From: Sphingobium sp. EM0848
GTDB lineage: Bacteria; Pseudomonadota; Alphaproteobacteria; Sphingomonadales; Sphingomonadaceae
DNA: 64,000 nt
Reading direction: 5' to 3'
Assembly (NCBI RefSeq): GCF_013375555.1
Contig: NZ_JABXWB010000003.1
Location: 124,001-188,000 of the forward strand
The stretch's first letter is position 1, and each line of letters starts with the position of its first letter. The translations under genes were made by a program, and so were the position numbers. The notes under the pieces were generated by a model. It made no database searches and was not told where the DNA came from. It saw only the letters and a program-made list of their open reading frames with translations. Of this stretch, positions 8,131 to 24,998 are shown one piece after another.

Positions 8131-9315
8131 TCAGTCGATCACCCGCTCGATGACCATGGCGATCCCCTGCCCACCACCGATGCACATGGTGACAAGGCCA
8201 TAGTGCCCCGCAATCCGCTCCAACTCATAGAGAGCCTTGACCGTCAAAATCGCGCCCGTCGCACCGACCGGATGGCCCAGCGAAATGCCGGACCCGTTGG
8301 GATTGACCTTCTCGGGATCGAAGCCGAGCAGATGGGCGACGGCACAGGCCTGCGCCGCAAAGGCTTCGTTCGATTCGATGACATCGACCTGATCGAGCGT
8401 CACGCCAGCCCGCTCCAGCGCGATCGGCACGGCCTTGACCGGCCCGATGCCCATGCGATCGGGCTGGACCCCGGCATGGCCCCATCCCAATATGCTGGCT
8501 CTGGGCTTCAACCCCTTTTCCCTGACCGCCGCCTGCGAGGCGAGAACCAGCGCCGCCGCGCCATCATTGATGCCGGACGCATTGCCGGCCGTGACCGTGC
8601 CACCCTTCTGAAACACGGCCTTGAGCTTGCCCATATCCTCCACATTCGCGCCACCGCGGACATGCTCGTCCGTGTCGAACAGTTGCACGCCTTTGCGGCT
8701 CCTGATCTCGACGGGCAGGATCTGCTCCCTGAAGCGTCCTTCCGCCTGCGCAGTCGCCGCACGCTGGTGGCTGAGTACCGCCAGTTCGTCCTGCATCTCG
8801 CGCGTGATGTGATGGTCGGCGGCCACATTCTCCGCCGTCACGCCCATATGCATGCCTTCGAACGGGTCGGAAAGCACAGCCGTCAGCGCGTCGACCATGA
8901 CGGCATCGCCCATTTTCTGTCCGAAGCGCGCGGCAGCCATATGATAGGGCGAGCGCGTCATCGATTCGGCGCCCCCGGCCACGGCAATACCGCATTCCCC
9001 CAGCGCGATCATCTGCGCGGCGGAAATGATGGCCTGGACACCCGATCCGCACAGCCGGTTGAGCGTCAGCGCGGGCGCTTCGACAGGCACGCCCGCCTCG
9101 ACCGCAGCGACGCGGGCGAGATAGGCATCCTTGGGTTCGCTGGGAATGACATTGCCCATGACGACATGCTGCACCGCATCAGGCTCCAGTCCCGCGCGCC
9201 GCACGGCCTCTGCAATGACCAGCGTGCCGAGGCGAGCGGGCGGAATGTCCTTCAGGCTGCCGCCGAAATCGCCGATGGCGGTACGAACGCCCGACAATAT
9301 GTAGATCGGTTCCAT
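8131..9315 (-). CDS. Acetyl-CoA C-acyltransferase (thiolase)
   Basis: The protein has 394 aa, the full length for a degradative thiolase II. It cleaves a 3-oxoacyl-CoA with CoA to give acetyl-CoA (or propionyl-CoA) and a shortened acyl-CoA. The nucleophile is in LNRLCGSGVQAI, the base in GHPVGATGA and the second Cys in CIGGGQG; all are intact. ATG at 9315 has GAGGTGA just upstream. It is the last gene of a leftward TetR-SDR-thiolase unit, 11 bp after the SDR stop. In context it would finish the beta-oxidation of the terpenoid skeleton by removing a C2 unit; the substrate itself is inference. Confidence 0.9.
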   Translation of the reverse strand: MEPIYILSGVRTAIGDFGGSLKDIPPARLGTLVIAEAVRRAGLEPDAVQHVVMGNVIPSEPKDAYLARVAAVEAGVPVEAPALTLNRLCGSGVQAIISAAQMIALGECGIAVAGGAESMTRSPYHMAAARFGQKMGDAVMVDALTAVLSDPFEGMHMGVTAENVAADHHITREMQDELAVLSHQRAATAQAEGRFREQILPVEIRSRKGVQLFDTDEHVRGGANVEDMGKLKAVFQKGGTVTAGNASGINDGAAALVLASQAAVREKGLKPRASILGWGHAGVQPDRMGIGPVKAVPIALERAGVTLDQVDVIESNEAFAAQACAVAHLLGFDPEKVNPNGSGISLGHPVGATGAILTVKALYELERIAGHYGLVTMCIGGGQGIAMVIERVID

Positions 9316-9326
9316 AATCTCACCTC

Positions 9327-10106
9327 TCACCGCGGCGTCATGCGCAGCGCGCCGTCAAGGCGCACCGAAGCGCCGTTCATGTAGCCATTGCCGATCAAGA
9401 ACAGCACGGTCTCGGCATATTCCTCCGGCTTTCCCAGACGCTTGGGAAAGGGCACCGTCGCGGCCAGCGAATCCTGAACATTCTGCGGTAGCCCGGCCAG
9501 CATCGGGGTGCCCAATATCCCCGGCAGGATGACGTTGCAGCGAATGCCGTCGCCCATGAGATCGCGGGCGATCGGCAGGGTCATGCCCTTCACCCCGGCC
9601 TTCGAGGCGGCATAAGCGGCCTGGCCGATCTGCCCATCCTCGGCGGCGACGGAAGCGGTGTTGATGATGACGCCCCGCTCGCCATCCTCGAGCGGATCAA
9701 GCGTCAGCATGCCCGCCGCCGATTTGGCGATACAGGCAAAGGTTCCCACCAGATTGATGCTCACGGTGCGCATGAAGGCCGCGATGCGGTGGGCGACGGG
9801 GGTGCCGCTTTCCCTGTCGCGGCTGGCCGTCTTTTCGCCCGACGCAATGCCCGCGCAGTTGACGAGAATGCGCTCCTGCCCCTGCGCATCGCGCGCCCTG
9901 GCAAAGGCAGCGTCGACCGATGCCTCGTCGGTGACATCGACGGCGCAGAACAGGGCGCCGATCTCGGCCGCCAGTGCTTCGCCGCGCTCGGCATTCACGT
10001 CGAAGATCGCGACTCTGGCCCCCGCGTCACGCAGCGCCCGCGCGGTCGCCTCCCCCAATCCCGATGCGCCGCCGGTCACGACGGCGGGCATGTCCTTGAT
10101 CCGCAT
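9327..10106 (-). CDS. Short-chain dehydrogenase, HSD10-like 3-hydroxyacyl-CoA dehydrogenase type
   Basis: The 259-aa classical SDR has the NAD-binding TGGASGLG at residues ~12-19, an acidic D37-type residue after strand 2 (AIFDVN) favouring NAD, NCAG, and the catalytic Ser (NTAS) and YAASK. The sequence resembles type-10 17beta-HSD/3-hydroxyacyl-CoA dehydrogenases. Lying directly before a thiolase, the likely step is 3-hydroxyacyl-CoA to 3-oxoacyl-CoA. GGAGAGAG precedes ATG 10106. It is transcribed with the TetR gene 30 bp upstream. Confidence 0.85.
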   Translation of the reverse strand: MRIKDMPAVVTGGASGLGEATARALRDAGARVAIFDVNAERGEALAAEIGALFCAVDVTDEASVDAAFARARDAQGQERILVNCAGIASGEKTASRDRESGTPVAHRIAAFMRTVSINLVGTFACIAKSAAGMLTLDPLEDGERGVIINTASVAAEDGQIGQAAYAASKAGVKGMTLPIARDLMGDGIRCNVILPGILGTPMLAGLPQNVQDSLAATVPFPKRLGKPEEYAETVLFLIGNGYMNGASVRLDGALRMTPR

Positions 10107-10136
10107 TTTCTCTCTCCTATGGATATGGCTTCAGGT

Positions 10137-10793
10137 CTATGCTGGCCCAAGCCTCAGCGGCATGCACATGACGGCCACGATCTGCTCCATCGTGTCCTCC
10201 AGCGCTTCCTCGAACGTCTCCCCGAACATCTCCCCGTCCGTGCCATGATGGCGGACCAGTATGTTGAGGAACATGAGACTGATGCTGATGAGCCGCCGCT
10301 GCGCGACATGCGGCGGCAGATAATCGACCCGATCGCGCAGCAGATGGAGCGCGCGGGTCAGATGGGGCGGCTCCGATCCGCTGAAATCGCCAAATTCCGG
10401 AGAACGGCTTTGCAGCAGATACTGGCTGAGGAAGCTGGCATAGCTATGGTTGCCATCGGCGTCCTGAAGGTCGAGCTGCGGCAGCAGGATGATCTCCAAT
10501 ATGGTGCGCGCATCCTTCAGCCGCCCGCCTGCTTCCGCCCGGCGCAACAGGGTGCCGCGCGCGTCCTCCATCTGATCCATGCGAAAGTCGAAGATGGCGC
10601 GCACCAGTCCCTCACGCGATCCGAAATGATATTGCACCGCCGCGTGATTACCCTGCCCGGCCTGTGCGGCAATCTCGCGCATCGAGGCACCATGGATGCC
10701 TCCCTTCGCAAACAGCCGCTCACCGGCGAGGATGAGGCGGGTCTTGCCGTCGAGACTTTCGGTCGCCGCCCCATCCTCCAGCTGGTTATCCAT
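10137..10793 (-). CDS. TetR-family transcriptional regulator 1
   Basis: The 218-aa protein has an N-terminal TetR helix-turn-helix at residues ~15-65 (LFAKGGIHGASMREIAAQAGQG, then QYHFGSREGLV) and an all-helical ligand domain after it. It begins the leftward unit with the SDR and thiolase and is divergent from the LLM monooxygenase at 11138. It is therefore a candidate repressor for the 14-bp dyads of this cluster, most likely released by a pathway intermediate. ATG at 10793 was taken; GTG at 10808 is an alternative and neither has an ideal ribosome site. Confidence 0.85.
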   Translation of the reverse strand: MDNQLEDGAATESLDGKTRLILAGERLFAKGGIHGASMREIAAQAGQGNHAAVQYHFGSREGLVRAIFDFRMDQMEDARGTLLRRAEAGGRLKDARTILEIILLPQLDLQDADGNHSYASFLSQYLLQSRSPEFGDFSGSEPPHLTRALHLLRDRVDYLPPHVAQRRLISISLMFLNILVRHHGTDGEMFGETFEEALEDTMEQIVAVMCMPLRLGPA

Positions 10794-11020
10794 GCCCGCC
10801 ACCCACATTCCTTATTACATCTGTTTTAGAAATACCCGGCATTGAAGGCGGGCTGAAAAATATATTTCCAGAAACCGCCCCTTCCCAACCGCCGAAACCG
10901 ATCGCAGAAAAGTGGGCATATTGCAAGAATTTTAGCGGCATTTCGGCACAATATGTCGACGCACCGCGCTCACAGCCTCTGCGCGCCGGGCCAAAACCCT
11001 ACCCCAGACGCGAAATACAC

Positions 11021-11049
11021 TTGACTTAAATTCCCGCGCTGGATTATCC
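11021..11049 (+). promoter_or_regulatory. Candidate sigma70 promoter of LLM monooxygenase 1
   Basis: TTGACT at 11021-11026 and TTATCC at 11044-11049 are separated by 17 bp. Dyad A begins at the next base, so a bound repressor would cover the start site. Confidence 0.4.
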
Positions 11050-11137: not shown

Positions 11138-12277
11138 ATGGCGATGGAAACCGGCCTCATCTTCCACCCCTATATGCGCCCGGGCCGAACGGCGCGGCAG
11201 ACCTTCGAATGGGGCGTTCAGAACAGCGTGGCCTGCGACAAGGCAGGCTTCACCTCGATGATGATTTCCGAGCATGCCTCGCAGATCTGGGAGAATATCC
11301 CCAACCCCGAACTCATCATGGCCGCCGCCGCGTTGCAGACCAGCCAGATCAAATTCGCTCCGATGGCGCACATCCTGCCCCACCAGCATCCCGCCAAGCT
11401 CGCCATCATGGTCGGCTGGCTGTCGCAGATTCTGGAAGGCCGCTATTTCATGGGCATCGGCGCCGGCGCCTATCCGCAGGCCTCCTACATGCACGGCATC
11501 AGGGAAGCGGAGCCGCAGATGCTGAACGACATGGTGCGCGAATCCCTCACCATCATGGAGAAGATCTGGAAGCGCGAGCCCTTTTTCTACGAGGGCAAAT
11601 ATTGGGACGCCGGCTTTCCCGAGGAAACCCCGGCGGAAACCGAGGAAGACGAACAGCATATGCTGGCCGATTTCTCGCCCTGGAACGGCGCCTTTCCCGA
11701 ATTCGCCGTCACCGGGTTCAGCCAGAATTCGCCATCGATGAAGCTCGCAGGCGAACGCAACTTCAAGCCGGTATCGATCTTCTCCGGCCTCGACGCGCTC
11801 AAGCGTCACTGGGAAATCTATTCGGAGGCCAATATCAAGGCAGGCTTCACACCGAACCGCCAGCGCCATGCCGTCTCGCAGACCGTCTTCTGCGCGGATA
11901 CGGATGCAGAGGCCAAGCGGCTCGTGATGGAGGGGCCGATCGGTTATTGCTTCAACAAATATCTGATCCCGATCTGGCACCGCTTCGGCATGATGGATGG
12001 CTTCGCCAAGGACGCCGGCATCGATCCCAAGGACGCCGACCTCGAATTCCTGGTCGATAATGTCTTCGTCGTCGGCTCGCCCGACACCGTCGTCGACAAG
12101 CTCAACACGCTGTTCGAACAATGCGGCGGTTGGGGCACGCTCCAGGTCGAAGCCCATGACTATTATGACGATCCGTCGCCCTGGTTCTATTCGCTCGAAC
12201 TGCTCGCCAAGGAAGTCGCCCCCCGCGTGAAGCTGCCGGGCACGCGCGAAGCGGTGAGTGAGGCGGCGGTCGCCTGA
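11138..12277 (+). CDS. Luciferase-like (LLM) flavin monooxygenase, diketocamphane-monooxygenase-like
   Basis: The 379-aa protein is of the bacterial-luciferase superfamily, which uses reduced FMN delivered by a separate reductase. Long blocks (RTARQTFEW, ISEHASQIWENIP, FAPMAHILPHQHPAKLAI, WLSQILEGRYF, IMEKIWKREPFF, AVTGFSQNSPSMK) closely follow the type II Baeyer-Villiger diketocamphane monooxygenases of camphor-degrading Pseudomonas as I remember them. Expected role: insertion of O next to a ring ketone to make a lactone, with FMNH2 supplied by the reductase at 20281. AAGGAG precedes ATG 11138. It is transcribed alone from a dyad-bearing promoter and ends at a strong terminator. The family is firm; the diketocamphane-like subtype is by memory, not alignment. 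Confidence 0.85.
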   Translation: MAMETGLIFHPYMRPGRTARQTFEWGVQNSVACDKAGFTSMMISEHASQIWENIPNPELIMAAAALQTSQIKFAPMAHILPHQHPAKLAIMVGWLSQILEGRYFMGIGAGAYPQASYMHGIREAEPQMLNDMVRESLTIMEKIWKREPFFYEGKYWDAGFPEETPAETEEDEQHMLADFSPWNGAFPEFAVTGFSQNSPSMKLAGERNFKPVSIFSGLDALKRHWEIYSEANIKAGFTPNRQRHAVSQTVFCADTDAEAKRLVMEGPIGYCFNKYLIPIWHRFGMMDGFAKDAGIDPKDADLEFLVDNVFVVGSPDTVVDKLNTLFEQCGGWGTLQVEAHDYYDDPSPWFYSLELLAKEVAPRVKLPGTREAVSEAAVA

Positions 12278-12335: not shown

Positions 12336-12376
12336 GTGCCTGAAAAAGCGATGCGCGCAGTACGCGCCTAGCCCGC

Positions 12377-13410
12377 CTTATTCATGAGGTTGGATGTGAG
12401 GGGTTGACGGGAGTGGCCTAAGCGCTTGGCTTGCTGTAGGAAATTGGATGTCTAGACCAACCTGCAGCGAGGCAAAAAATGCCACAGGCCACTCCCGCCG
12501 GGAGCGACGATAGTGCGGCGGTGATTTCGTTTCCAGCAGTGTCGCGCAAGAAAGTGGCAGGCGCCTTCGATGGAGGCCGGTTGACCTCGGACGGTGGGGT
12601 TCTGCTGCTGGCTCAGGCCGAGCGCGCAATGGGTATCTGCCGGCAGCTCGCGGCCTGCATTGCCGATCCGCGCGATCCTTCGCGGGTCACCCATAAGCTC
12701 GATGATATCCTGCGGGCGCGGATCCTGGCGATCGCCTGCGGCTACGAAGACGCTGACGGCCTTGATGCCCTGCGCGCCAACCCTGACATCGTCGCCGCCG
12801 CCGATGCCTGTGCGGTCAAGCGTGCCGAGAAACAGCGCGTGGTCCTGCGTAGCTATGCCGAGATCCGCTATGGGGCGAAAAGCTGGAAGTGTCAGCGCCG
12901 CGTCGTCGCCCGGATTGAAGCCAGCACCCTGGGCATGGATATCCGCTACGTCGTCACTTCCCTGGCACAGGGCTCCGCCGAACATATCTACGACAGCCTT
13001 TATTGCGCCCGGGGCCAGGCCGAAAACCTGATCAAGCGGCACAAGAGCCAGCTCAGCAGCGATCGCACCTCGTGCCGATCGGCCAACGCCAACCAGATGC
13101 GGCTCATTCTGCACACCGCTGCCTATTGGTTGATGTGGCGCATCCAGCAGGCTGTCCCCAAAGCAGCAGCCCTTGCCAATGCCGAGTTCGCCACCCTGCG
13201 CCTGCGGCTCCTCAAAGTCGCCGCCCGCGTAATCGAAACCGCAAGCCGAATCCGCGTCGCCTTCGCTTCCGCCTGTCCTGATGCCAACACGTTCCGGGCT
13301 GTCGCCGCCGCGCTCAGGTCCGCGCCGACATAGCCCACGCGGCCGTGCCGCTGAACCACACAACCCGCTCCTTCAACCCGAAAGCCTATCAAACATCCGC
13401 GGTGAAATAG
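12377..13410 (+). mobile_element. IS1380-family element, internally deleted
   Basis: The element consists of the shortened transposase plus short flanks. Imperfect terminal similarity exists between about 12377 (TTATTCATGAGGTTGGATGT) and the inverse of about 13390-13410 (TATTTCACCGCGGATGTTT). The exact ends are uncertain. It sits between two catabolic transcription units without breaking a gene. Confidence 0.5.
12479..13333 (+). pseudogene. IS1380-family transposase with in-frame internal deletion
   Basis: The 284-aa open frame starts like an intact IS1380 transposase (AFDGGRLTSDGGVLLLAQAE, DPRDPSRVTHKLDDILRARI, GYEDADGLDALRANPDI). At about residue 104 it jumps to the C-terminal region (YGAKSWKCQRRVVARIEAS, GQAENLIKRHKSQL, ANQMRLILHTAAYWLMW). 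The family is normally about 430-460 aa, so roughly 150 residues, including part of the DDE catalytic core, are lost without breaking the frame. It is probably inactive but mobilisable in trans if the ends are intact. Confidence 0.75.
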
Positions 13411-13506
13411 ACGCAGCACGATCGCTCGTCCCGATCATACAGCAGATAGTGTAGTAGGCCGGCCACCGGCGGAAAAGACATCGTCACGAATAAGATGGGC
13501 TAAAGG

Positions 13507-14100
13507 TCAGGGACGTTCGACCGCGAACCCGTGGAGAAGCAGATGGGCCGCCTGTTCGGCAATCTGCGCAGGCCCCAGCTTTCCCGGACGATACCAGGAC
13601 GAGCAGGAATCGAGCATCGCAATCAGGAACTTGCGAACGACAGTGGCGTCCAGAGCCTTGGCACCGCTGCCGTCGGCCTGAGCGGCGACGATCAAATCGC
13701 GCCAGTAGTTATCAAAGCTGGAATAGGCCGCCAGCACGCGCTGACGCATCTCATCGGGCAAGTCATCGAACACGCGCGACACAGCCGAGGAATAGTCATC
13801 ACCCGTCAACAGGAAGTCGACATGCGCGACAATCGCCGCGCGCAGGCGCACCATCGGCGATGCCCCCGGTCCCAGCCCTTCCACGCGCGCCATGATGTGG
13901 CGGTTGTTATGATAGATGCCCTCCATCATCACTTCCTCGACCAGATGGTCCTTGGACGGGAAATGATGATAGATGCTGGGGGCCAGCATGCCGGCCCCCT
14001 TTGCAATGTCGCTCAGCTTGGCGCCGGCCAGCCCCTTTTGCCGCAGGATCGCGGCGGCGGAATCCAGAATGCGCGTTCGGCCATTATCTGCTTGTGCCAT
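13507..14100 (-). CDS. TetR-family transcriptional regulator 2
   Basis: The 197-aa protein has a TetR N-terminal domain (TRILDSAAAILRQKGLAGAKLSDIAKGAG, then SIYHHFPSKDHLV; residues ~8-58) and a C-terminal helical domain of the AcrR type. It is the last gene of the leftward LLM2-ECH1-lactonase-TetR unit (54 bp after the lactonase), so it is probably expressed with and regulates that unit. GAGGG precedes ATG 14100. Like TetR1 it is a candidate binder of the 14-bp dyads; in the Pseudomonas camphor system the repressor CamR is also TetR-type. Confidence 0.85.
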   Translation of the reverse strand: MAQADNGRTRILDSAAAILRQKGLAGAKLSDIAKGAGMLAPSIYHHFPSKDHLVEEVMMEGIYHNNRHIMARVEGLGPGASPMVRLRAAIVAHVDFLLTGDDYSSAVSRVFDDLPDEMRQRVLAAYSSFDNYWRDLIVAAQADGSGAKALDATVVRKFLIAMLDSCSSWYRPGKLGPAQIAEQAAHLLLHGFAVERP

Positions 14101-14154: not shown

Positions 14155-15090
14155 CTATCCGGCGAAAGGCGTGTTTGGGACGCCTGCGGCGGGAGGATCG
14201 AGAATCTCGAACAGACCACCGGCCAGCGGCTGCTGCGCGAAGATTTCGGGCGTGAAACCCTGCGAACCGGTGATCAGGAACAGCCGACTATAATCTGTAC
14301 CGCCAAAGGCAGGGCGAAGACCGCGCCGGACCGGCAGGCGCCGCTCCTCCAATAAGGTGGCATCCGGCGCAAAGCGACGCAACATCCAGCTTTCGTAAAA
14401 GGCCATCCAGATACAGCCTTCGACATCGACGGCCATGCCGTCGGGATAGCCATCCTCCGGCTTGAACGTCAGGAAATCGCGGCGGTTGGACAGGGTGCCA
14501 TCCTCCGCCAAATCATAGGCCCAGCTCACCAGCGGCATGGAATCGTTCACATAAGCGATCCTGCCATCGGGGCTGAACGCCGGGCCATTGGCGGTGACGA
14601 TATTGCGTTCCTGCGTGCTGACCGTTCCATCGGCATCGAGCCGGTAGAGTTCGCCCGTGCTGCGGACCTCGAAATTGCCAAGCGTGCTTTCCTTATCCTC
14701 AGCCGTGGTGCTTTCGTCCCACTGGCTGGAATCGCAGGACCCTGACCAGTAGCGCCCCTTGCGGTCGGTGACGCCGTCATTCAGGCGCGCGACTTTCGGG
14801 TTGGGGATGGGATGGATGAAGGGCTGGTAAATCCCCCGCCGGGGATCGATATGGGCGAAACCGTCGGCGCAGGAGGCGACGAAGCCGCCGCTTGCCCGCG
14901 GCGCGATGGCGCTGATCCAGGCTGGCGCGTCCCACCGGCCCTTCTCGCCGCTCTCCAGATGATACCAGTTGACGCTCGGCGCTTCGATATCGACCCAATA
15001 GATGCAGCCGTCCCGATCGTCCCAGATGGTGCTTTCGCCCAGGATCGCCTTCGCATCCCACAGGCAGCGCCAGCCTTCGCCTTCCATCAT
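14155..15090 (-). CDS. SMP-30/gluconolactonase-like lactone hydrolase
   Basis: The 311-aa six-bladed propeller is of the SMP-30/gluconolactonase/LRE family, which hydrolyses lactones with one bound metal. Recognisable blocks are GESTIWDDRDGCIYWVDI at the N-terminus (Glu metal ligand), ARLNDGVTDRKGRYWSGS (Asn-Asp), YVNDSMPLVSWAYD and GYPDGMAVDVEGCIW. The ligand residues appear conserved. A longer open frame extends to 15603 but overlaps the crotonase gene; ATG 15090, 20 bp after that gene's stop, is the natural start. Expected role here: opening the lactone produced by the flavin monooxygenases. The substrate is inferred from context. Confidence 0.85.
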   Translation of the reverse strand: MMEGEGWRCLWDAKAILGESTIWDDRDGCIYWVDIEAPSVNWYHLESGEKGRWDAPAWISAIAPRASGGFVASCADGFAHIDPRRGIYQPFIHPIPNPKVARLNDGVTDRKGRYWSGSCDSSQWDESTTAEDKESTLGNFEVRSTGELYRLDADGTVSTQERNIVTANGPAFSPDGRIAYVNDSMPLVSWAYDLAEDGTLSNRRDFLTFKPEDGYPDGMAVDVEGCIWMAFYESWMLRRFAPDATLLEERRLPVRRGLRPAFGGTDYSRLFLITGSQGFTPEIFAQQPLAGGLFEILDPPAAGVPNTPFAG

Positions 15091-15110: not shown

Positions 15111-15956
15111 TCAGAGCTTCACGATCGGATCGCCAAAGGGTTCGTCGCGTTGCCGCACGGCTTCCTTGAGGCCCTGCGTCCGCACGGTTTCGTTGAAGCG
15201 CGTCCGGCTCGCCGCCAGATGCCCCCGCGCATCCATTTCCGCCGCCATGCGCTGCAAGGTGCGCGCGCCCATCAGTTCGAGGCCGATGTTGACGATCCGC
15301 TTGTTGGCGCTCAGCAGATCGGGATCGATCAGCGCCAGCCGCGCCGCGAGCGCTTCGACCTCCGCCTCCAACTGGTCGGCGGGAACGGCCTTGAGCGCCA
15401 GGCCGATCCGGGCCGCATCCTCGCCCCGAATGGAATCCCCGGTCAGCAGCAATCGCTTCGCCCATTGCGGCCCCGCCAGATAGAGCCACATATGGCTCGG
15501 CAGCGACCCCTGCGACCGCGCGGGCGGAAAGCCGAAGATCGCATCGTCCGCGCAGATCACCATGTCGCAGAGCAGGGCCAGATCGGTCCCTCCCGCCAGA
15601 CAACGGCCATGGACCTGCGCGATCACCGGCTTGTGCATGTCGAACAGCGCCATGCGCAGCCGTTGCGCCCGTTCCTGATGCCAGCTGTCATCGTCGAACT
15701 TCGCCCGCCCGCGCCGGTGATCGACCTGTCCGGGGATCGGCTGGTCATATTTCTGCAGGTCATAACCCGAACAGAAATCCGGCCCCGCAGCCTTCAGCAC
15801 CACCGCATGGACGCGAACATCCTCATCAGCGTCCCACAGCATCGCATTCAGCTGCTCCTGCAACTCCTCGCTCAACGCGTTGCGCTTTTCGGGCCGGTTC
15901 AGCGTAATCCACGCCGTCCCGTCACGCACATCGTACAGGAGCAATGGCTCGGTCAT
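15111..15956 (-). CDS. Crotonase-fold protein (enoyl-CoA hydratase/isomerase family) 1
   Basis: The 281-aa crotonase has the oxyanion-hole block QVHGRCLAGGTDLAL at about residue 115 and ITLNRPEKRNALS at the N-terminus. The two glutamates that act in true enoyl-CoA hydratases are not conserved (AGGTDLALLCD has D at the first, GFPPARSQGS has A at the second), so simple hydration is unlikely. Isomerase, C-C hydrolase or ring-opening activity on a CoA thioester is more plausible. It is second in the leftward unit, 47 bp after LLM2. GAGAGGATGAGG precedes ATG 15956. Confidence 0.8.
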   Translation of the reverse strand: MTEPLLLYDVRDGTAWITLNRPEKRNALSEELQEQLNAMLWDADEDVRVHAVVLKAAGPDFCSGYDLQKYDQPIPGQVDHRRGRAKFDDDSWHQERAQRLRMALFDMHKPVIAQVHGRCLAGGTDLALLCDMVICADDAIFGFPPARSQGSLPSHMWLYLAGPQWAKRLLLTGDSIRGEDAARIGLALKAVPADQLEAEVEALAARLALIDPDLLSANKRIVNIGLELMGARTLQRMAAEMDARGHLAASRTRFNETVRTQGLKEAVRQRDEPFGDPIVKL

Positions 15957-16003: not shown

Positions 16004-17110
16004 TCATGCCAAAGTCTGCACGCCGACCGGAGCGACCGGCGCGGACACATCGATATCCTTGAGATGGGGCAGGACCTTGCGCGCAAAAAGCTCGTAATTT
16101 TCCCGACCCACCTCGAAGGGCATGTCGCCAAACTGGGTATAGATGATGAAGCTGCCCACGTCGAAGCGATCGACCATCGCCTTCAGCTTTTCCAGCACCT
16201 CTTCCGGGCGGCCCCATATCTGGAGATCGGCGAGGAAATTGTTGAATTTCTCGATGCCGTTCTTCTCCACGCTGGCCGCCAGCGCGCCATAATATTCATA
16301 GCCTTCGATCGACGCGAATTCCTTGTTGCCGAACTGATAGAAGGAGGAGGTGGAGCGGGCATATTCGACCAGATATTTATCGCGCATCTCCTGCGCCTTC
16401 GCCGCATCCTCATTGACCGCGACGAAGGCGACGACCACCGGCTTGGGCGCGGGACGGCCCTGCATCGCGAAGAAACGCTCGCGATAGCTGGTGATATCCT
16501 CCTCGACCCGGTCCCAGGGCTTCTGCGCGATGATCATCAGCCCGACGTCCAGATTGGCCATCAGCTTGACCGATTCCGGCGACACGGCGGAGGCGAACAC
16601 GCGACCCCGATAGCTGGCATAGGGGCGCGGACGCAGCTCGACGCGGGGCTGCTTCAAATAGTCGCCGTCATATTCCATGACGCCGGTTTCCAGCGCTTCC
16701 AGCAGGGCTTCGGCATATTCGCGGAAACGCTTGCGCGCCTCGCCCATGGGCACGCCGAAGCCGTCAAACTCCTCCTTGCCCAGACCCCGGCCAATGCCCA
16801 GAATTGCCCGCCCTTCGGAGAACTGGTCGAGCAGGAGGAAGCTTTCCGCGATGCGAACCGGGTTCTGCCACGGCAACACGGTGACGGTCGTGCCGAGCTT
16901 GATCCGCTTGGTCTGGCCCGCCACCCAGGACAGGAACTGGGGCACGTTGGGCGTCATCATATAGCCGGTGAAATGATGCTCCGGCGTCCAGACGGAATCG
17001 AAGCCCTGATCTTCGGCGCGCGCCGCCAGCGAGAGTTCGTGACGGAACACGTCGATATCGCTGACCTTGTCGTTCAGATTCTGGAACGTCAGCCCCAATC
17101 CCACATCCAT
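16004..17110 (-). CDS. Luciferase-like (LLM) flavin-dependent oxidoreductase 2
   Basis: The 368-aa bacterial-luciferase-family protein contains DSVWTPEHHFTGYMMTP (flavin-side EHH motif), IKLGTTVTVLPWQNPVRIAE and GRAILGIGRGLGKEEFDGFG. It differs clearly from LLM1, so the two should act on different ketones or one may be a two-component hydroxylase. GGAGG lies 6 bases before ATG 17110, which is better than the in-frame start 12 bp upstream. It is the first gene of a leftward four-gene unit and has dyad B 34 bp upstream. It would depend on the flavin reductase at 20281. Confidence 0.85.
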   Translation of the reverse strand: MDVGLGLTFQNLNDKVSDIDVFRHELSLAARAEDQGFDSVWTPEHHFTGYMMTPNVPQFLSWVAGQTKRIKLGTTVTVLPWQNPVRIAESFLLLDQFSEGRAILGIGRGLGKEEFDGFGVPMGEARKRFREYAEALLEALETGVMEYDGDYLKQPRVELRPRPYASYRGRVFASAVSPESVKLMANLDVGLMIIAQKPWDRVEEDITSYRERFFAMQGRPAPKPVVVAFVAVNEDAAKAQEMRDKYLVEYARSTSSFYQFGNKEFASIEGYEYYGALAASVEKNGIEKFNNFLADLQIWGRPEEVLEKLKAMVDRFDVGSFIIYTQFGDMPFEVGRENYELFARKVLPHLKDIDVSAPVAPVGVQTLA

Positions 17111-17143
17111 ATTCGCCTCCAAATCGCATCTCTTGGAATTAAA

Positions 17144-17402: not shown

Positions 17403-19088
17403 GTGAGTGAGTCCATCGCAGCGCGGCGCCAGGCCATGGCAGACCGGCATCCTGTCTGGCAGGAGATGACGCTGGACGCTTATCTCAGACGCGCCGCCGA
17501 AGATTATGGCACGCGCCCCCTCGTCATCACCGATGCCGAAACGCTCGATTATGGCACGGTGGAGGCGCAATCCCGGCAGATCGCGGCAGGCCTCGTGGCC
17601 CTCGGCATCCAGCGCGGCGAACGGGTGGGCCTGATGATGGCCAATTATCCCGTTACCGTATCCCTGCTCTTCGCGATCTGGCGCACCGGGGCCATCGCCG
17701 TAGCGATCAACACGCTCTATGGCCCCAAGGAGCTGGAATATGTCATCCGCGAAGCCGGATGCGCGCTGCTCGTCAGCATGGCCGGCTTCGGTTCCCGCCG
17801 CTTCGATCGGGAACTGGACGAGCGCATGCCGGGATGGCGGACCGGCGACTATGCACCCCTGCCGGAATTGCGCCGGGGCTTGGTGCACGACATCAACGCG
17901 CCGCAGCATTTTTTCGATGCGCTACCGGCCGGGGAGCTGCCCGAACAGGGCGCCGAACCCCATGATGCGGCCGTCATCATGTTCACCTCCGGCACGACCG
18001 GATCGCCCAAGGGCGTGATGCAGACCCATGATAATCTGCTGCGGGCCGCTTATGCCGGCGCCTATCATCAGGCGTTCGAAGACGGCCGGCGCGCGGTCTT
18101 CTCGCTGCCGCTCTATCATTCCTTCGGCCTTGTCGTGGGGCTGCTGTCCGGGATGATCGTCGGCGGCGCCATCATTCCCCTGCTCCGTTTCGATCCGCAC
18201 GCCCTGCTGACGGCGACCGAGCGCCACCGCGCGACCTATCTCATGGGCGTCCCGACCATGACGATCGCCATGATGGAGCAGGCGAAGACGCAAAGTTACG
18301 ATCTGTCCTCCCTGACCGCCGTGCACAGCGCCGCCGCCCCGACGCCAAGCTGGGTCTGGCGCGAGATACAGCGGGTCTTCGGCTGCGAGGAGATTTTCAC
18401 CAGCTACGGCCAGACCGAAGTGACCGCGACCATCGTGTGCACAAAGCCGGGCGATCCCATCGAGATCGTCGCGGAAACGCAGGGCTGCATTGTCGAGGCC
18501 GGTGTAGCCGGAATCCCCGCGCTGGGCGGCAGGATTTGCGAGTTCAAGACGATCGACCCGGAAACCGGTGAAGATCTGCCGCACGGCGCCGCGGGCGAAT
18601 TGTGCACCCGCGGACCGATGAACAGCCTCGGCTATTTCCGCCGTCCGGAGGAAAGCGCGAAGCTCTTCCTTCCGGGTGGCTGGATTCGCACGGGCGACCT
18701 TGGACAGTTCAGGCCCGACGGCAATCTGTTCCTGACCGGGCGGTCGAAGGAACTCTACAAGAGCAAGGGCGAACTGGTTTCCCCCAAGGAGCTGGAGCAG
18801 CTGGTCACCGCGCATCCGGCCATCGCACAGGCCTTTTTCATCGGCATGCCTGATGATCGCTGGGGCGAATGCGGTTGTGCCTGGATCGTGCTGGCCGATG
18901 GCCAGTCCTTCACCGCCGAAGAACTGCTCGCCTGGCTCGCTCCGCAAGTGGCGGGCTACAAGCTGCCGCGGGATATCTGGTTCATTGCCGACAATGAACT
19001 GCCCAAGACCGGCACCGGCAAGGTGCAGAAGAACATCCTCAAGGACATGGCATTGGCACAGCTCGCTGCGGCGAAGGGCGCAGCCTGA
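17403..19088 (+). CDS. Acyl-CoA synthetase (AMP-binding, class I adenylate-forming)
   Basis: The 561-aa ligase activates a carboxylic acid to its CoA thioester via an acyl-AMP. The P-loop-like FTSGTTGSPKGVMQTHD is at ~197, the A5/A8 motifs SYGQTE and GWIRTGDLGQF...LFLTGRSKELYKSKGELVSPKELE follow, and the C-terminal catalytic Lys is in PKTGTGKVQK. All are complete. GTG at 17403 has AGGAG nearby. It is cotranscribed with the RibBA gene 27 bp downstream and divergent from LLM2. In the camphor-like scheme it would take the acid released after ring opening, as CamF does in Pseudomonas; the true substrate is unknown. Confidence 0.88.
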   Translation: MSESIAARRQAMADRHPVWQEMTLDAYLRRAAEDYGTRPLVITDAETLDYGTVEAQSRQIAAGLVALGIQRGERVGLMMANYPVTVSLLFAIWRTGAIAVAINTLYGPKELEYVIREAGCALLVSMAGFGSRRFDRELDERMPGWRTGDYAPLPELRRGLVHDINAPQHFFDALPAGELPEQGAEPHDAAVIMFTSGTTGSPKGVMQTHDNLLRAAYAGAYHQAFEDGRRAVFSLPLYHSFGLVVGLLSGMIVGGAIIPLLRFDPHALLTATERHRATYLMGVPTMTIAMMEQAKTQSYDLSSLTAVHSAAAPTPSWVWREIQRVFGCEEIFTSYGQTEVTATIVCTKPGDPIEIVAETQGCIVEAGVAGIPALGGRICEFKTIDPETGEDLPHGAAGELCTRGPMNSLGYFRRPEESAKLFLPGGWIRTGDLGQFRPDGNLFLTGRSKELYKSKGELVSPKELEQLVTAHPAIAQAFFIGMPDDRWGECGCAWIVLADGQSFTAEELLAWLAPQVAGYKLPRDIWFIADNELPKTGTGKVQKNILKDMALAQLAAAKGAA

Positions 19089-19115
19089 ACCAACAGGCAA
19101 ATGGAAAGAAAAACA

Positions 19116-20231
19116 ATGAGCACCGAAGGCATCTCATCGATCGAAGACATCATCCAGGATGCCATCGACGGACTCCCCTATATCTTGGTCGACGCCGACG
19201 ACCGCGAAAATGAGGGCGATGTCATCATCCCGGCCCAGTTCGCGACGCCGCGCCAGATCAATTTCATGGCGAAGCATGCACGCGGCCTCATCTGCCTCGC
19301 CATGACGCAGGCGCGGGCGGAGCATCTGAAACTGCCGCCGATGACGGTCAACAACCAGTCCGGCCACGGCACGGCCTTCACCGTATCGATCGAAGCCCGC
19401 GAAGGCGTGACCACCGGCATTTCGGCGCAGGATCGCGCCCATACCGTCGCCGTGGCGGTCGATCCCACCAAGACCGCCGCCGACATCGTCTCGCCCGGCC
19501 ATATCTTTCCGCTGACGGCGCGCGACGGCGGCGTGCTGGTCAGGGCCGGGCATACGGAGGCGGCCGTCGACATCTCGCGCCTCGCGGGCCTCACGCCAGC
19601 GGGCGTCATCTGCGAGGTGATGAACGACGATGGAACCATGGCGCGTCTGCCGGAGCTATTGGTTTTTGCGAAAGAGCATGGCCTCAAGGTCGGCACCATC
19701 GCCGACCTCATCGCCTATCGCCGCCGGTCGGAAAAGCTGGTGCAATGCGTCGCCAGCGCGCCATTCCACAGCTTCTACGGCGGCGACCTCACCATCCATG
19801 TCTATCGCAACCAGATTGACGGTGGAGAACATGTCGCGCTGGTGAAAGGCGAAGTCCGTCCCGATCGGGAAACGCTGGTCCGCGTGCATCAGGTGGACCT
19901 GACGGCCGACCTGCTCGGCTGGTCGCAGGCGCACCCCGAATATGTGCCGCAGGCCCTTCAGGCCATGGCCGCGCATGAGGGGCAGGCCGTCGCCGTTTTC
20001 GTCCGCGATCCCAGCCCGGATTCCATTTCGCAACGCATCAAGGGCGGGCGAAAGACCTATCACGACACCAATGCGACCCGCGATTACGGCATCGGCGCCC
20101 AAATCCTGCTGGATTTGGGCGTGCGCCAGATGACCCTGCTGACCTCCAGCAAAGCCAAGCTCGCGGCACTGGAGGGCTTCGGTCTGACGGTGGTAGGACG
20201 CGTTCCGCTGCGCAGCCCCGTCGAGGGATGA
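19116..20231 (+). CDS. RibBA-type protein: DHBP synthase with degenerate GTP cyclohydrolase II domain
   Basis: In the 371-aa protein, residues ~10-215 form an intact 3,4-dihydroxy-2-butanone-4-phosphate synthase (DDRENEGD, GLICLAM, GVTTGISAQDRA, GHTEAAVDISRLAGL, GVICEVMNDDGTMAR), which makes the four-carbon precursor of riboflavin. The GCH-II-like C-terminal half keeps the frame HVALVKGE but lacks the zinc cysteines (the usual SECLTGD is HQVDLTAD and the RCDCG segment is missing), so that half should not open GTP. ATG 19116 follows GGAAAG. Its place behind the ligase gene implies extra FMN supply for the two LLM enzymes and the reductase. Confidence 0.88.
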   Translation: MSTEGISSIEDIIQDAIDGLPYILVDADDRENEGDVIIPAQFATPRQINFMAKHARGLICLAMTQARAEHLKLPPMTVNNQSGHGTAFTVSIEAREGVTTGISAQDRAHTVAVAVDPTKTAADIVSPGHIFPLTARDGGVLVRAGHTEAAVDISRLAGLTPAGVICEVMNDDGTMARLPELLVFAKEHGLKVGTIADLIAYRRRSEKLVQCVASAPFHSFYGGDLTIHVYRNQIDGGEHVALVKGEVRPDRETLVRVHQVDLTADLLGWSQAHPEYVPQALQAMAAHEGQAVAVFVRDPSPDSISQRIKGGRKTYHDTNATRDYGIGAQILLDLGVRQMTLLTSSKAKLAALEGFGLTVVGRVPLRSPVEG

Positions 20232-20280: not shown

Positions 20281-20769
20281 TCAGATCGGCATGACCCGGC
20301 CATAGGCGCCCTTGTGGAACAACAGGGGCGCGCCGGGATGGTGGGCGTCGAGCGCATGCACCGCGCCCAGCACGATATGATGATCGCCCGCTTCGTGCAC
20401 GGCGTGGATGGTGCAATCGATCCAGGCGAGCGCGCCATCCAGCACCGGCGACCCCAGCGCAGAGAGATGATGCGGCACGCCCTCGAACTTGTTCGGGTCC
20501 TTGGACGCGAGGATGCGGCAAAGCCCCTCCTGCCCGTCGCCCAGCACATTGACGCAAAAGCGTCCCGCCGCTTCGATCTTCGGCCAGCTCGACGACCCCT
20601 TGTCGGGGAAGAAGGCGACCAGCGGCGGATCGAGCGATACCGAGGTGAAGGAGCCGACGATCATGGCGGCGGGAACGCCGTCCGGCTGGACCGCGGTGAT
20701 GGCGCAGACGCCGGTCGGATAGTGACCCAATATGCGGCGGAAATCGTGCGGGTCGATCGTGACGGTCAT
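20281..20769 (-). CDS. Flavin reductase (FMN-split-barrel, two-component monooxygenase type)
   Basis: The 162-aa protein is of the flavin-reductase-like family (HpaC/DIM6-NTAB type), with GHYPTGVCAITA at ~11-22, GSFTSVSLDPPLVAFFPDKGSSSWPKI and GDHHIVLGAVHAL. It reduces free FMN or FAD with NAD(P)H and hands it to partner oxygenases, here most likely the LLM enzymes at 11138 and 16004. It is the third gene of the leftward ADH-P450-reductase unit. ATG 20769, 7 bp after the P450 stop, is preferred over an upstream ATG at 20808 that would overlap the P450; neither has a strong ribosome site, suggesting coupled translation. Confidence 0.88.
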   Translation of the reverse strand: MTVTIDPHDFRRILGHYPTGVCAITAVQPDGVPAAMIVGSFTSVSLDPPLVAFFPDKGSSSWPKIEAAGRFCVNVLGDGQEGLCRILASKDPNKFEGVPHHLSALGSPVLDGALAWIDCTIHAVHEAGDHHIVLGAVHALDAHHPGAPLLFHKGAYGRVMPI

Positions 20770-22047: not shown

Positions 22048-23130
22048 TCAACGGATGGTCGGGTCGATCACCGCCTTGGTGGCGACGCCGGTTTTCGTGA
22101 CATGGAGGGCCTCGGCCGCCTGATGGATACCGAAGCGATGGCTGACGAGCTGGCCCAGCGGCACCGCATCCTGAACGCGCGCCGCAAATTGCATCGCCTG
22201 ATAGTAATTTTTGGGGGCCGGGAAGGAAGCACCCCCGACCGTCAGATTCTTCAGCGTCAGATCCCGCGGGGAAATCGGCTGCGTGCCGATCGCACCCCAC
22301 AGGCCCAATATGATGTAGCGGCTGTGAATGCCGCTGAGATCGACGCCTTCGGGAAAGGCCGGCAGCGCGCCAGCCGCTTCGATGACAATGTCCGGACCCT
22401 GACGGCCGACACGGTCGTAAATCATCCGCTTGCGCTCCTCGGCGGGCAGGTCGAGCGACACCGTCGCCGTCGCGCCGAGCGACTTCGCAGCCTCCAGCCG
22501 TGCCGGGGCGCCATCGATCACGATCACTTCGCGCGCGCCCGCCTGCGCCGCCACCAGCGCGGCGGACAGACCCACCGGCCCTGCCCCCTGAACGACGACG
22601 GAGTCGCCGAACCGCACCGGACCGCAGCGGTCGAAGCCGCGCAATACCGTCGGCAAGGCACATCCCAGTGCCGCGACCGCCTCCGGCCGGGCATGGTCCG
22701 GCAGGCGATAGAAGGGCATGTTGTTGGGCAGCCAGGCATAATCGGCATAGCTGCCCCAATTGGGCTTGGCCGCATCCTCGAAATATTGGCTGTTCTCGCA
22801 CGGCGTCTGTTCGAGGACGGTGCAGGAATAGCAGCGGTGGCACAGCGCGATGGGCGACCAGATGACAAGGTCGCCGGGCTTGACCGGCACGCCCGCATAG
22901 TCGGTCGACACACCGGCGCCGAGCTGCTCGATCTGTCCGACGCCCTCATGGCCCAGGATGATCGGAAAAGGCATCTCGCCCGCCTCTCCGCTCAATATGT
23001 GGACGTCGCTACCGCATACGCCGCCCAATATGGTGCGGACCAACGCACCACCCGCCTCGGGCGCATGGATGTCGACGTCCCAAGTTTCGAGGCGGTTTTT
23101 CTCCACCATCACCGCAGCTCTGCCCTGCAT
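22048..23130 (-). CDS. Zinc-dependent medium-chain alcohol dehydrogenase
   Basis: The 360-aa MDR enzyme has catalytic zinc ligands Cys (GVCGSDVH) and His (GHEGVG), a structural zinc lobe with four Cys ([15 protein letters not shown]) and the nucleotide-binding [14 protein letters not shown] followed by an acidic residue (IVIDG), favouring NAD. As the first gene before a CYP101-like P450 it matches the order camD-camC of the Pseudomonas camphor operon, where the dehydrogenase oxidises the hydroxylated terpene to a diketone. GAGAGGATGAGGG lies directly before ATG 23130. Dyad C is 99 bp upstream. Confidence 0.88.
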
Positions 23131-23228
23131 CCCTCATCCTCTCAGCTTTGCCTTCGTAGCCGTCGCACCGGCGTTCGAACGGCTTTTAACTCACTTGCAG
23201 GGTCGACGTCCCCGCCATTGAAACGAAA

Positions 23229-23242
23229 CTAATCAAAATTAG
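23229..23242. promoter_or_regulatory. Dyad C (CTAATCAAAATTAG), cluster operator
   Basis: This is a 5-bp inverted repeat CTAAT/ATTAG with a 4-bp spacer, 99 bp upstream of the ADH-P450-reductase unit. Confidence 0.6.
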
Positions 23243-23422
23243 CCTGACGATGCAAGAGGCGATTGCAGGCGACATCAAGGAGTACCCCGCAAAGACAACC
23301 TTAGTAATTTCATAAATTACTGTTTTTACGTAATATTTTTTTGAATATTCGTATTGAATCTCCGGCACCGGAACAGCCGGATCAATCCCACCCTATTGAC
23401 ATTTACGCGCCAAGAATATTCA

Positions 23423-23436
23423 ATAACCAACATTAG
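23423..23436. promoter_or_regulatory. Dyad G (ATAACCAACATTAG), cluster operator variant
   Basis: It has the same ATAAC-N4-ATTAG form as dyad F and lies 28 bp before the SDR2 start. Confidence 0.45.
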
Positions 23437-23464
23437 GCAAATGAAGAATCGCGAAGGAGAGCAT

Positions 23465-24211
23465 ATGGGTCGTCTGGCAGGCAAAGTGGCCATCATCACA
23501 GGGGCTGCTCGCGGCATGGGGGAATCCCACGCCCGCATGTTCGCGCGTGAAGGCGCCAAACTCGTCCTCACCGACCTCAACGTCGAAAAGGGCACGGCCT
23601 TGGCCAAGGAAATCGGCGAAGCGGCAATATTCCTGGCGCATGACGTGACCAAGACCGACGACTGGGCACGCATCGTCGCCAAGGCGGTCGAAACCTTCGG
23701 AACGATCGACATCCTCGTCAACAATGCCGGCATCCTCGGCCCGATGGCCAATACGGTCGACCTGACGGAAGAGAGCTACCAACTCGTCTGCGCGGTCAAC
23801 CAGCATTCGGTCTTTTACGGCATGCAGGCCGTGCTGCCGACGATGGTGAAGGCCAATAAGGGCTCGATCGTGAACATCTCCTCCATCGCTGGCATGGCGG
23901 CGAACTATGGCTTCCCCAGCCTGGCCTATGTCGCGAGCAAGTTCGCCGTGCGCGGCATGACCAAGGCCACGGCCATGGAATATGGGAAAAATAATATCCG
24001 CGTGAACTCCGTGCATCCCGGCTTCATCCAGACGCCGATGATGGTCGAGGCGACCGACGAAGTCGGCGGCGAGGCGCTGGCCCAAATCCCGCTGGGCCGC
24101 ATCGCCGATCCGTCCGAAGTGTCGAACCTCGTGCTGTTCCTGGCTTCGGACGAATCATCCTACATCACTGCCTCGGAACATCTGGTCGACGCTGGCATGC
24201 TGGCCCACTGA
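23465..24211 (+). CDS. Short-chain dehydrogenase/reductase 2
   Basis: The 248-aa classical SDR has TGAARGMG, an acidic residue after strand 2 (LVLTDLN), NNAGILG, the catalytic Ser in ISSIAG and YVASK, and is complete. GAAGGAG sits 6 bases before ATG 23465; in-frame codons upstream are not needed. It is cotranscribed with the crotonase gene 16 bp downstream. It resembles secondary-alcohol/hydroxysteroid-type SDRs; it could oxidise a hydroxylated ring or side-chain intermediate. The exact substrate is unknown. Confidence 0.86.
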   Translation: MGRLAGKVAIITGAARGMGESHARMFAREGAKLVLTDLNVEKGTALAKEIGEAAIFLAHDVTKTDDWARIVAKAVETFGTIDILVNNAGILGPMANTVDLTEESYQLVCAVNQHSVFYGMQAVLPTMVKANKGSIVNISSIAGMAANYGFPSLAYVASKFAVRGMTKATAMEYGKNNIRVNSVHPGFIQTPMMVEATDEVGGEALAQIPLGRIADPSEVSNLVLFLASDESSYITASEHLVDAGMLAH

Positions 24212-24227
24212 CCGGGAGGGAAGCGCC

Positions 24228-24998
24228 GTGCCAACGGTCGAGTTTCACCGCAGCGGCCATGTTGCCGAGATACGGCTTAACCGGCCCGCCTCGCTCAACG
24301 CCATTGATGATGAGATGGACCGGGCACTTGCCGATGCCTGGGAACATGTGGACGGCGACCCGGATATCCGGGTCGCTGTTCTCTCCGGCACCGGCGACAG
24401 GGCCTTTTGCGCCGGGGCAGACATAGCGAACCCACCGCTGGGCCATGACGGCCTTTCCTTCGGCGGCGGCCTGACGGGCATAGGGGGGCGGCTGAACGCC
24501 TTGCGCAAACCCCTGATCTGCGCGGTCCAGGGCCATGTGCTGGGACTTGGTTTCGAGCTGGCCATGTGCGCGGACATCATCATCGCCGCCGAGGACGCTG
24601 TGTTCCGTCTGCCAGAGGCGCGGGCCGGCATCATCGACCATTGCGGCGTCGTCCATCGCGCCATCCGGCAACTTCCGCATCATGTGGCCATGGCCATGAT
24701 CATCGCCAGCGAACCGCTGACCGCGCAGGACGCATTGCGATTTGGCCTGATCAATGCCTGCGTCGACCGCAGCGCATTGCCCGCGGAAACCACTCGCTGG
24801 ATCGCGAAGCTGCTGGAATGCTCGCCACTGGTGTCACAAGCGGGCAAAGAGGCAGCACTGGACGGGCTGAGGCATTCGCTGCCTGACGCCTTGTCGGCCT
24901 CCTACCCCCAGATCAAAAGCTATCAGGCGGCACGGGACTGCGCGGAAGCGGCAGTCGCATGGAAGGAACGGCGCGCACCCCAATGGCTCGGGCGATAG
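24228..24998 (+). CDS. Enoyl-CoA hydratase/isomerase family protein 2
   Basis: The 256-aa crotonase has IRLNRPASLNAI, AFCAGADI and VQGHVLGLGFELAMCADI. Both hydratase glutamates are present (GFELAMC and LPEARAGI), unlike crotonase 1, so reversible hydration of a 2-enoyl-CoA is plausible. GTG at 24228 is preceded by GGGAGG. It would supply the 3-hydroxyacyl-CoA for the SDR1/thiolase pair. IS66 inserted 112 bp downstream. Confidence 0.85.
   Translation: MPTVEFHRSGHVAEIRLNRPASLNAIDDEMDRALADAWEHVDGDPDIRVAVLSGTGDRAFCAGADIANPPLGHDGLSFGGGLTGIGGRLNALRKPLICAVQGHVLGLGFELAMCADIIIAAEDAVFRLPEARAGIIDHCGVVHRAIRQLPHHVAMAMIIASEPLTAQDALRFGLINACVDRSALPAETTRWIAKLLECSPLVSQAGKEAALDGLRHSLPDALSASYPQIKSYQAARDCAEAAVAWKERRAPQWLGR

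Follow-up and report, generated by a model that had tools for sequence, protein, structure and literature searches.

A camphor-type catabolic cluster of Sphingobium sp. EM0848 with a second luciferase-like oxygenase and no detected OTEMO ortholog

In the textbook camphor pathway, the CoA ester of 2-oxo-4,5,5-trimethylcyclopentenylacetate (OTE), OTE-CoA, is oxidised by the type I enzyme OTEMO. Camphor degradation is a founding pathway of oxygenase biochemistry, yet the role of orf23, a luciferase-like monooxygenase (LLM) gene of the Pseudomonas putida CAM plasmid, is called unrecognised in the account that assigns orf22 to 2,5-diketocamphane monooxygenase 2 (2,5-DKCMO-2) (PMC6352141). In P. putida, no activity that hydrolyses the diketocamphane lactones could be detected (PMC6352141), and its OTEMO product is said to open spontaneously (PMC6027186). 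The steps after trimethylpimelyl-CoA are called poorly characterised in PMC6027186, which states elsewhere that proteins are assigned for every activity to isobutyryl-CoA, and a 40.5-kb CAM region is said to encode all of them (PMC8706424). The sphingomonad Caenibius tardaugens offers a case of functional redundancy on progesterone, between an LLM and a type I Baeyer-Villiger monooxygenase (BVMO) (PMC12239570), and another type II BVMO, sphantq_4473, has been reported (PMC9836352). Here we analyse a gene cluster at 8131-24998 of a 64,000-nucleotide stretch of Sphingobium sp. EM0848 (the window; contig NZ_JABXWB010000003.1, positions 124,001 to 188,000), which encodes a DKCMO ortholog (LLM1), a CYP101D-type P450, a CamD-like alcohol dehydrogenase (ADH) and a second luciferase-like oxygenase (LLM2). 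Literature searches on camphor or diketocamphane with sphingomonads or CYP101, judged by titles and with most subscription journals outside, returned no account of this cluster, although this does not show it to be new to the literature. Nothing relevant was found in the literature pairing camphor with ribB, and nothing for isobutyryl-CoA with camphor and thiolase.

LLM1 scored 701 bits against PDB entry 4uwm (3,6-DKCMO) over residues 1-367, the next PDB match reaching 41 bits, and is 79% identical to the Pseudomonas copies and 45% to the 2,5-DKCMO of Pseudomonas sp. BN102. By sequence comparison, LLM1 is an ortholog of 3,6-DKCMO. The best solved-structure matches of the P450, with near full-length coverage, were CYP101D1 (3lxh, 741 bits) and CYP101D2 (3nv5, 629 bits), followed by CYP101D5 (526 bits), P450cam (~400 bits) and the cineole enzyme P450cin (141 bits). 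The acid-alcohol pair, which has a catalytic role in P450s, is retained as D260-T261, and W90, Y99 and M101 occupy the positions of Trp89, Tyr98 and Met100 of CYP101D1. These bulky residues of CYP101D1 are tied to camphor binding, and smaller ones are found in the ionone-type CYP101D5 (PMC9655578). Because W90, Y99 and M101 match the camphor-type pocket, camphor is favoured over ionone as the substrate, and the P450 is predicted by homology to hydroxylate camphor. The ADH is 71% identical over 357 residues to the product of a gene that precedes a P450 gene in BN102, and that P450 scored 945 bits against the P450cam entry 6wpl. Since a CYP101D1-type pocket, a DKCMO ortholog and a CamD-like dehydrogenase occur together, their predicted identities jointly support camphor, short of proof of the substrate.

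An earlier note on this DNA, made from the sequence alone, had named a CYP101-like P450 behind an alcohol dehydrogenase in the camD-camC order and a DKCMO-like enzyme; all of this stood, the ADH gene lying just upstream of the P450 gene on one strand. Of the substrates that it listed (camphor, cineole, fenchone and ionone), camphor is backed by the pocket residues, ionone is disfavoured by the same residues and cineole by the P450cin score (141 bits vs. ~740 for CYP101D1). It had also listed a second LLM enzyme, LLM2, which is not of the DKCMO group: LLM2 reached 138 bits to 8cbb and 34.6 bits to 4uwm, and is 28-33% identical to both DKCMOs over short stretches. The P450 and LLM1 thus fall within the CYP101 and DKCMO groups, and LLM2 alone falls outside, so that the note's ground for refutation, a phylogeny with all three outside these groups, does not apply as a whole. 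We conclude that the camphor-type cluster is genuine and represents a new version of an established pathway, not a new kind of system.

The cluster is not unique to this genome, because a DKCMO with ~80% identity or more is carried by 10 of the 397 family genomes besides its own (11/397 with it; a relative at E <= 1e-60 was found in 17/397). Across GTDB species genomes, 46 DKCMO loci were retrieved, in hosts that include Sphingobium, Novosphingobium, Rhizorhabdus, Sphingomonas, Croceicoccus, Pseudomonas, Pseudoduganella and several metagenome-assembled genomes. The order TetR1-LLM1-TetR2-SMP-ECH1-LLM2-LIG-RIB-FRED-P450-ADH (gene names as in Table 1) recurs in eight other loci (L042, L044, L045, L046, L047, L049, L066 and L081), RIB and FRED being separated by a ferredoxin gene in some of them, so the grouping is not due to chance. 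Gene maps show TetR1-LLM1, TetR2-SMP-(ECH1)-LLM2, LIG-RIB, FRED-P450-ADH and SDRB-ECH2 as recurring blocks. Among 44 loci, with flanks of up to 10 kb that were often ended by the contig, relatives near LLM1 were TetR1 (35, counted at an identity of at least 50%), P450 (28), RIB (27), ADH (24), SMP-30 (20) and LLM2 (17). In Sphingobium psychrophilum (L120), SDRB-ECH2 is followed by SDRc, thiolase and OTEMO, and in Croceicoccus estronivorus (L124) a relative of SDRA (83%) is flanked by OTEMO and thiolase. The camphor region of Pseudomonas sp. MYb185 holds relatives of SDRB (76%) and ECH2 (49%). In Rhizorhabdus histidinilytica, a 478-amino acid frame with no Pfam match (L119:1780-3216) lies opposite the stretch that aligns with SDRB-ECH2 of the window and is probably spurious, overlying relatives of these two genes.

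In the window's genome no OTEMO ortholog was found, a PF00743 search included: the best-scoring match reached 32% identity and 195 bits, compared with at least 620 bits for orthologs or their fragments, and a further match had 37% over half the length; the earlier note had not remarked on this absence. Presence was then counted over 45 records that all carry this DKCMO, namely 44 genomes and the plasmid record of Novosphingobium sp. ES2-1 (W01, plasmid only), with thresholds of at least 69% for OTEMO and at least 70% for LLM2. A 34% relative (L084) and two fragments (L085 and L087) had been dropped, and L086 was kept to represent genome G439, the LLM1 of which is only a fragment located where a contig ends. 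The counts come from draft and metagenome-assembled genomes, and absences are weak in the small G418 (1.7 Mb) and G425 (2.1 Mb). OTEMO was present in 19 of the 45 records and LLM2 also in 19. An orf23-like LLM was found in 29/45 (as two fragments in G423, and at a contig end with no 2,5-DKCMO in view in G425). In each layout drawn, one copy of it adjoins 2,5-DKCMO; in BN102 it is directly beside this gene, a 95% relative of which is named 2,5-DKCMO in a source, and MYb185 has an extra copy beside ribB and a flavin reductase. By position, the orf23-like LLM is probably orf23 of the CAM plasmid, whose layout is known from descriptions only. LLM2 is distant from it (33% over 94 residues), and LLM2 was rejected as its ortholog on this ground. 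The camphor regions of MYb185 and BN102 (L073, L137-L139) hold a P450cam gene, 2,5- and 3,6-DKCMO and at least two orf23-like LLM copies; searches of the two draft genomes turned up no OTEMO ortholog.

All 26 OTEMO-less genomes carry LLM2 or the orf23-like LLM, and the three records with neither LLM (W01, G406 and G407) all have OTEMO; taken by itself, this association does not reach significance (p 0.068). The LLM2/OTEMO trend gave no signal on the LLM1 tree. In 0/19 LLM2 genomes vs. 20/26 of the others, an orf23-like LLM was observed on the LLM1 contig no more than 40 kb away from LLM1 (Fisher 7e-8). Of the remaining six, G423, G431 and G439 are blurred by contig breaks, and the other three are the records with neither LLM. 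Six genomes have both LLMs: they lie ~100 kb apart on one contig in G397 and on different contigs in G000, G399, G401 and G405, and the short contigs of G434 are not decisive. LLM2 was shown to be inside the cluster in 18 of its 19 genomes, LLM1 and LLM2 being on different contigs in G411. Along the LLM1 tree, the LLM2/orf23-like state changes at least 7 times, but well supported branches hold only 4 independent pairs, of which a mean of 3.6 had the expected direction and none the opposite one (p 0.125). This was a quick tree with 12 of 41 inner branches open, in which L086 was omitted, L082 is a 212-residue fragment, and G423 and G431 were scored as orf23-type despite having LLM1 and the orf23-like LLM on different contigs. 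Among the 397 family genomes, LLM2 at 70% or more occurs in five. Because all five fall among the 11 with LLM1 (hypergeometric 6e-9, uncorrected for relatedness), LLM2 belongs to the DKCMO pathway.

In the proposed route, the CYP101D enzyme would hydroxylate camphor, the CamD-like dehydrogenase would then make the diketone, and LLM1 with the flavin reductase would yield a lactone that opens to OTE, as predicted from homology. LIG, a candidate OTE-CoA synthetase, would form OTE-CoA, and LLM2, taken as FMNH2-dependent, may perform the second Baeyer-Villiger step, which is OTEMO's job in P. putida. The SMP-30 protein would hydrolyse the lactone from this step, and the crotonases, the short-chain dehydrogenases (SDRs; SDRA is a candidate 3-hydroxyacyl-CoA dehydrogenase) and the BktB-type thiolase would degrade the chain to acetyl-CoA and isobutyryl-CoA. 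The redundancy seen in C. tardaugens is a precedent for LLM2 replacing the type I OTEMO. We tentatively propose, as a quite possible reading, a sphingomonad-type variant of the camphor pathway in which LLM2 and the SMP-30 lactonase would stand in for OTEMO. More hesitantly, we suggest that camphor clusters may hold a slot for a second luciferase-like oxygenase, either LLM2 or the unrelated orf23-like LLM, that could be a new FMNH2-dependent Baeyer-Villiger enzyme for OTE-CoA, OTEMO being dispensable in many degraders. What makes the cluster valuable is this second oxygenase slot, as yet unexplained, together with the missing OTEMO and the candidates that it supplies for later steps: the recurring neighbours point to possible second oxygenases and add an independent lower-pathway set, and OTEMO-less strains are ready-made tests.

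The RIB protein has a whole DHBP synthase domain, and the zinc cysteines of GTP cyclohydrolase II are missing in its alignment to the RibBA entry 4i14, by which an active bifunctional RibBA was rejected. RibBX proteins retain RibB activity alone (PMC10012899), and by sequence RIB qualifies as one of them. That RIB adjoins LIG and lies near two luciferase-like oxygenases suggests that it supplies flavin to these enzymes, and it would lift the FMN supply for both. A relative of RIB is found near DKCMO in 27 of the 44 loci, the RibBX type not having been verified for each, and the MYb185 region has a relative at 48%, behind which come an orf23-like LLM and a flavin reductase sharing 61% identity with FRED. 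These recurring neighbours suggest that DKCMO-type flavin oxygenases come with a flavin-supply gene, resembling the rib genes that some lux operons carry. The SMP-30 protein, announced as a lactonase in the earlier note and supported as such by its SGL domain, scored 169 bits against the Smp-30/Cgr1 family protein 7plb. Its E18, N167 and D216, which we take to be metal ligands, match the metal-ligand positions (Glu, Asn, Asp) of 7plb and of regucalcin 4gnb. It would be an enzymatic version of the lactone opening that is spontaneous in P. putida. A dienelactone-hydrolase-family gene near OTEMO in the second S. psychrophilum cluster (L142:5768-6607) is a possible alternative lactone opener.

The state of this copy was compared with the locus L042 of Sphingobium sp. 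15-1. The window has an IS1380 insertion (Table 1) that L042 lacks, the two loci being 95-96% identical on either side of it, and an IS66 insertion at about 25095-26833, and 68 bp replaces 406 bp that holds the ferredoxin gene; the alignment stops at a distance of 2 bases from where the thiolase gene ends. No [2Fe-2S] ferredoxin gene was matched beside the P450 or anywhere else in the window, and four ferredoxins elsewhere in the genome are 50-57% identical to that of ES2-1. A CamA-type ferredoxin reductase domain was not seen in general scans of the cluster ORFs, with no dedicated search made. The enzyme ORFs of the cluster are all open. The IS66 element is identical in three places, the two others being 57127-58846 and C1:760404-762123, on the largest contig. 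Because the latter interrupts the CYP101D gene there, the plasmid gene is the only unbroken one of the two CYP101D-like genes (>60%) in the genome. The interrupted gene belongs to a second camphor-type cluster on C1 (C1:762000-778000; L130, L140) with an orf23-like LLM, a TonB receptor, a CamD-like dehydrogenase (74%), a relative of RIB (77%) and a 2,5-DKCMO-like gene (64% to that of BN102).

Two observations weigh against the reading in which LLM2 replaces OTEMO in a camphor pathway. LLM2 and OTEMO occur together in 10 of the 45 records, so that exclusion of OTEMO by LLM2 was rejected as stated, and Sphingomonas echinoides (L072) has, ~8 kb from its DKCMO, a P450 (G427:C1:171800-172999) whose 526 bits equal the CYP101D5 score and which adjoins a second CYP101D-like P450 (64%). 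LLM2 might be a second, enantiocomplementary DKCMO in place of 2,5-DKCMO, with the OTE-CoA step left to an unrelated BVMO elsewhere or absent. P. putida uses separate, strictly enantioselective enzymes for each camphor series (PMC6352141), and LLM2 and the 2,5-DKCMO/orf23-like pair were not seen in one cluster in the 40-kb comparison above. We nevertheless regard this as somewhat unlikely, given the distance of LLM2 from both DKCMOs, the mere four independent pairs that the tree control leaves and the presence of a 2,5-DKCMO-like gene elsewhere in this genome, on contig C1. Alternatively, the camphor upper pathway may be real and LLM2 may do another job, e.g., on a later branched acyl chain or on another terpenoid of the same cluster. 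The grouping of LLM2 with crotonase and lactonase, not with the P450, the diverse substrates of luciferase-like enzymes and the coexistence of LLM2 with OTEMO fit such a role, but the finding of LLM2 only alongside LLM1 in the family genomes makes it unlikely.

It is quite improbable that the locus is a decayed, non-working copy of a once complete camphor cluster, minus OTEMO and the ferredoxin gene and with a broken uptake receptor. The replacement of the ferredoxin gene by 68 bp, the broken TonB receptor frame, the IS1380 and IS66 insertions and the CYP101D gene cut on contig C1 by an identical IS66 would agree with decay; the open enzyme ORFs and the four ferredoxins encoded elsewhere do not, and OTEMO was also not found in strain 15-1, where the receptor frame is whole. 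A growth substrate other than camphor (ionone, cineole, fenchone or a steroid side chain) is highly improbable in view of the camphor-type pocket residues, the DKCMO ortholog and the CamD-like dehydrogenase. Novosphingobium sp. ES2-1, a relative known as an oestrogen degrader, was put forward for it, as was the P450 of S. echinoides with its CYP101D5 score. Substrates also vary among CYP101 members (PMC9655578).

The window lies on contig C3 (266 kb), which is very likely a plasmid because RepA and ParAB are encoded there (38367-42038, domain scan); this agrees with the sphingomonad plasmid of the earlier note. Pfam and NCBIfam profile scans of the window proteins, with start sites chosen within some ORFs, recovered every enzyme class that the note had listed and added what it had overlooked, namely ribB, TetR1, TetR2, IS1380, IS66 and the frame-broken TonB receptor (Table 1). 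Its expectation of a layout different from the Pseudomonas camphor clusters was borne out. The thiolase scored 644.9 against a cut-off of 565 for the NCBIfam subfamily PRK09051 (BktB) and 606.3, below the cut-off of 725, for the equivalog bketothiol_BktB, and the HsaB score of FRED (192.7) is under the cut-off of 230. LLM2, ECH1 and SMP-30 are co-directional together with TetR2, LLM2 being transcribed first; FRED, P450 and ADH are likewise on the minus strand, with ADH transcribed first. To the left of the cluster lie an AIPR-domain gene (5302-7014) and, between it and the thiolase gene, a short PQQ-dehydrogenase C-terminal piece (7483-8085). Three Fic-domain genes (1731-3110, 30105-31337 and 32699-33973) and a nucleotidyltransferase-HEPN gene (58872-59804) are also present on this plasmid stretch; a nucleotidyltransferase-HEPN gene of equal length occurs in ES2-1 (L016:4205-5137), separated by a few kb from the camphor-type cluster there.

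Table 1. Coordinates of the features of the cluster and its right flank in the window.
Feature	Position	Strand	Family or basis
BktB-type beta-ketothiolase	8131..9330	-	Thiolase_N/C
SDRA, short-chain dehydrogenase	9327..10106	-	adh_short
TetR1, divergent from LLM1	10137..10808	-	TetR_N
LLM1	11138..12277	+	ortholog of 3,6-diketocamphane 1,6-monooxygenase (DKCMO)
Insertion with IS1380-family transposase remnant	12366..13499; ORF 12479-13333	+ (ORF)	family profiles
TetR2	13507..14100	-	TetR_N + TetR_C_24
SMP-30/gluconolactonase-type lactonase (SMP), 310 aa, start set at MEGEGW	14155..15087	-	SGL
Crotonase ECH1	15111..15956	-	ECH_1
LLM2, bacterial-luciferase-alpha-like oxygenase	16004..17122	-	profile and structure-database comparison
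Acyl-CoA ligase (LIG)	17403..19088	+	AMP-binding
RIB, RibB fused to degenerate GTP cyclohydrolase II domain (RibBX type)	19101..20231	+	
Flavin reductase FRED, HsaB/FerA-like, start set at MTVTID (ORF to 20808)	20281..20769	-	Flavin_Reduct
CYP101D-type cytochrome P450	20777..22033	-	
Zinc alcohol dehydrogenase (ADH), CamD-like	22048..23130	-	Pfam
SDRB, short-chain dehydrogenase, start set at MGRLAG (ORF from 23354)	23465..24211	+	Pfam
Crotonase ECH2	24228..24998	+	Pfam
IS66 element, 1720 bp	25111..26830; transposase ORF 25177-26805	+	
TonB-dependent receptor, frame broken into two ORFs	27090..29536	+	

Among sequenced relatives, Sphingobium sp. 15-1 (L042/L118) has a near-identical cluster (94-96% DNA identity except for one 201-bp piece at 85%; LLM1 100%, LLM2 99%), and its genome likewise gave no OTEMO ortholog. 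In contrast to the window, it keeps the ferredoxin gene and the whole TonB receptor frame (one 815-amino acid ORF, L118), and it is without IS1380 or IS66 at the insertion sites of the window. Plasmid p2 of Novosphingobium sp. ES2-1 (NZ_CP063447, L016) shares LLM1 (88%), ADH (87%), SMP-30 (84%), P450 (79%), SDRB (79%), RIB (74%) and LIG (67%). Unlike the window, it has a ferredoxin gene, a TonB receptor and OTEMO: a 545-amino acid oxidoreductase, rejected as a ferredoxin reductase, gave 945 bits to the OTEMO entry 3uov in the PDB search. LLM2, this ECH1 and the thiolase are outside the ES2-1 stretch read, and LLM2 was not found in the whole plasmid record. A lasso peptide cluster (L016:1-3842) adjoins the camphor-type cluster there.

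CYP101D1 of Novosphingobium aromaticivorans is the solved structure closest to the P450 of the window, which keeps its camphor-pocket residues. The pdc cluster of C. tardaugens resembles the proposed arrangement in pairing a type I Baeyer-Villiger enzyme with a luciferase-like one for one job (PMC12239570), but its substrate is a steroid (progesterone). With the P. putida CAM plasmid, as far as descriptions of its layout go, the window shares the P450/dehydrogenase order, a 3,6-DKCMO ortholog, a flavin reductase, a CoA ligase and a second luciferase-like oxygenase, which is orf23 in CAM (PMC6352141). It differs in having CYP101D and not CYP101A, LLM2 and not the orf23-like LLM, no OTEMO, no 2,5-DKCMO in the cluster and no ferredoxin gene beside the P450, and in carrying RibBX and an SMP-30 lactonase where the opening in P. 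putida is described as spontaneous.

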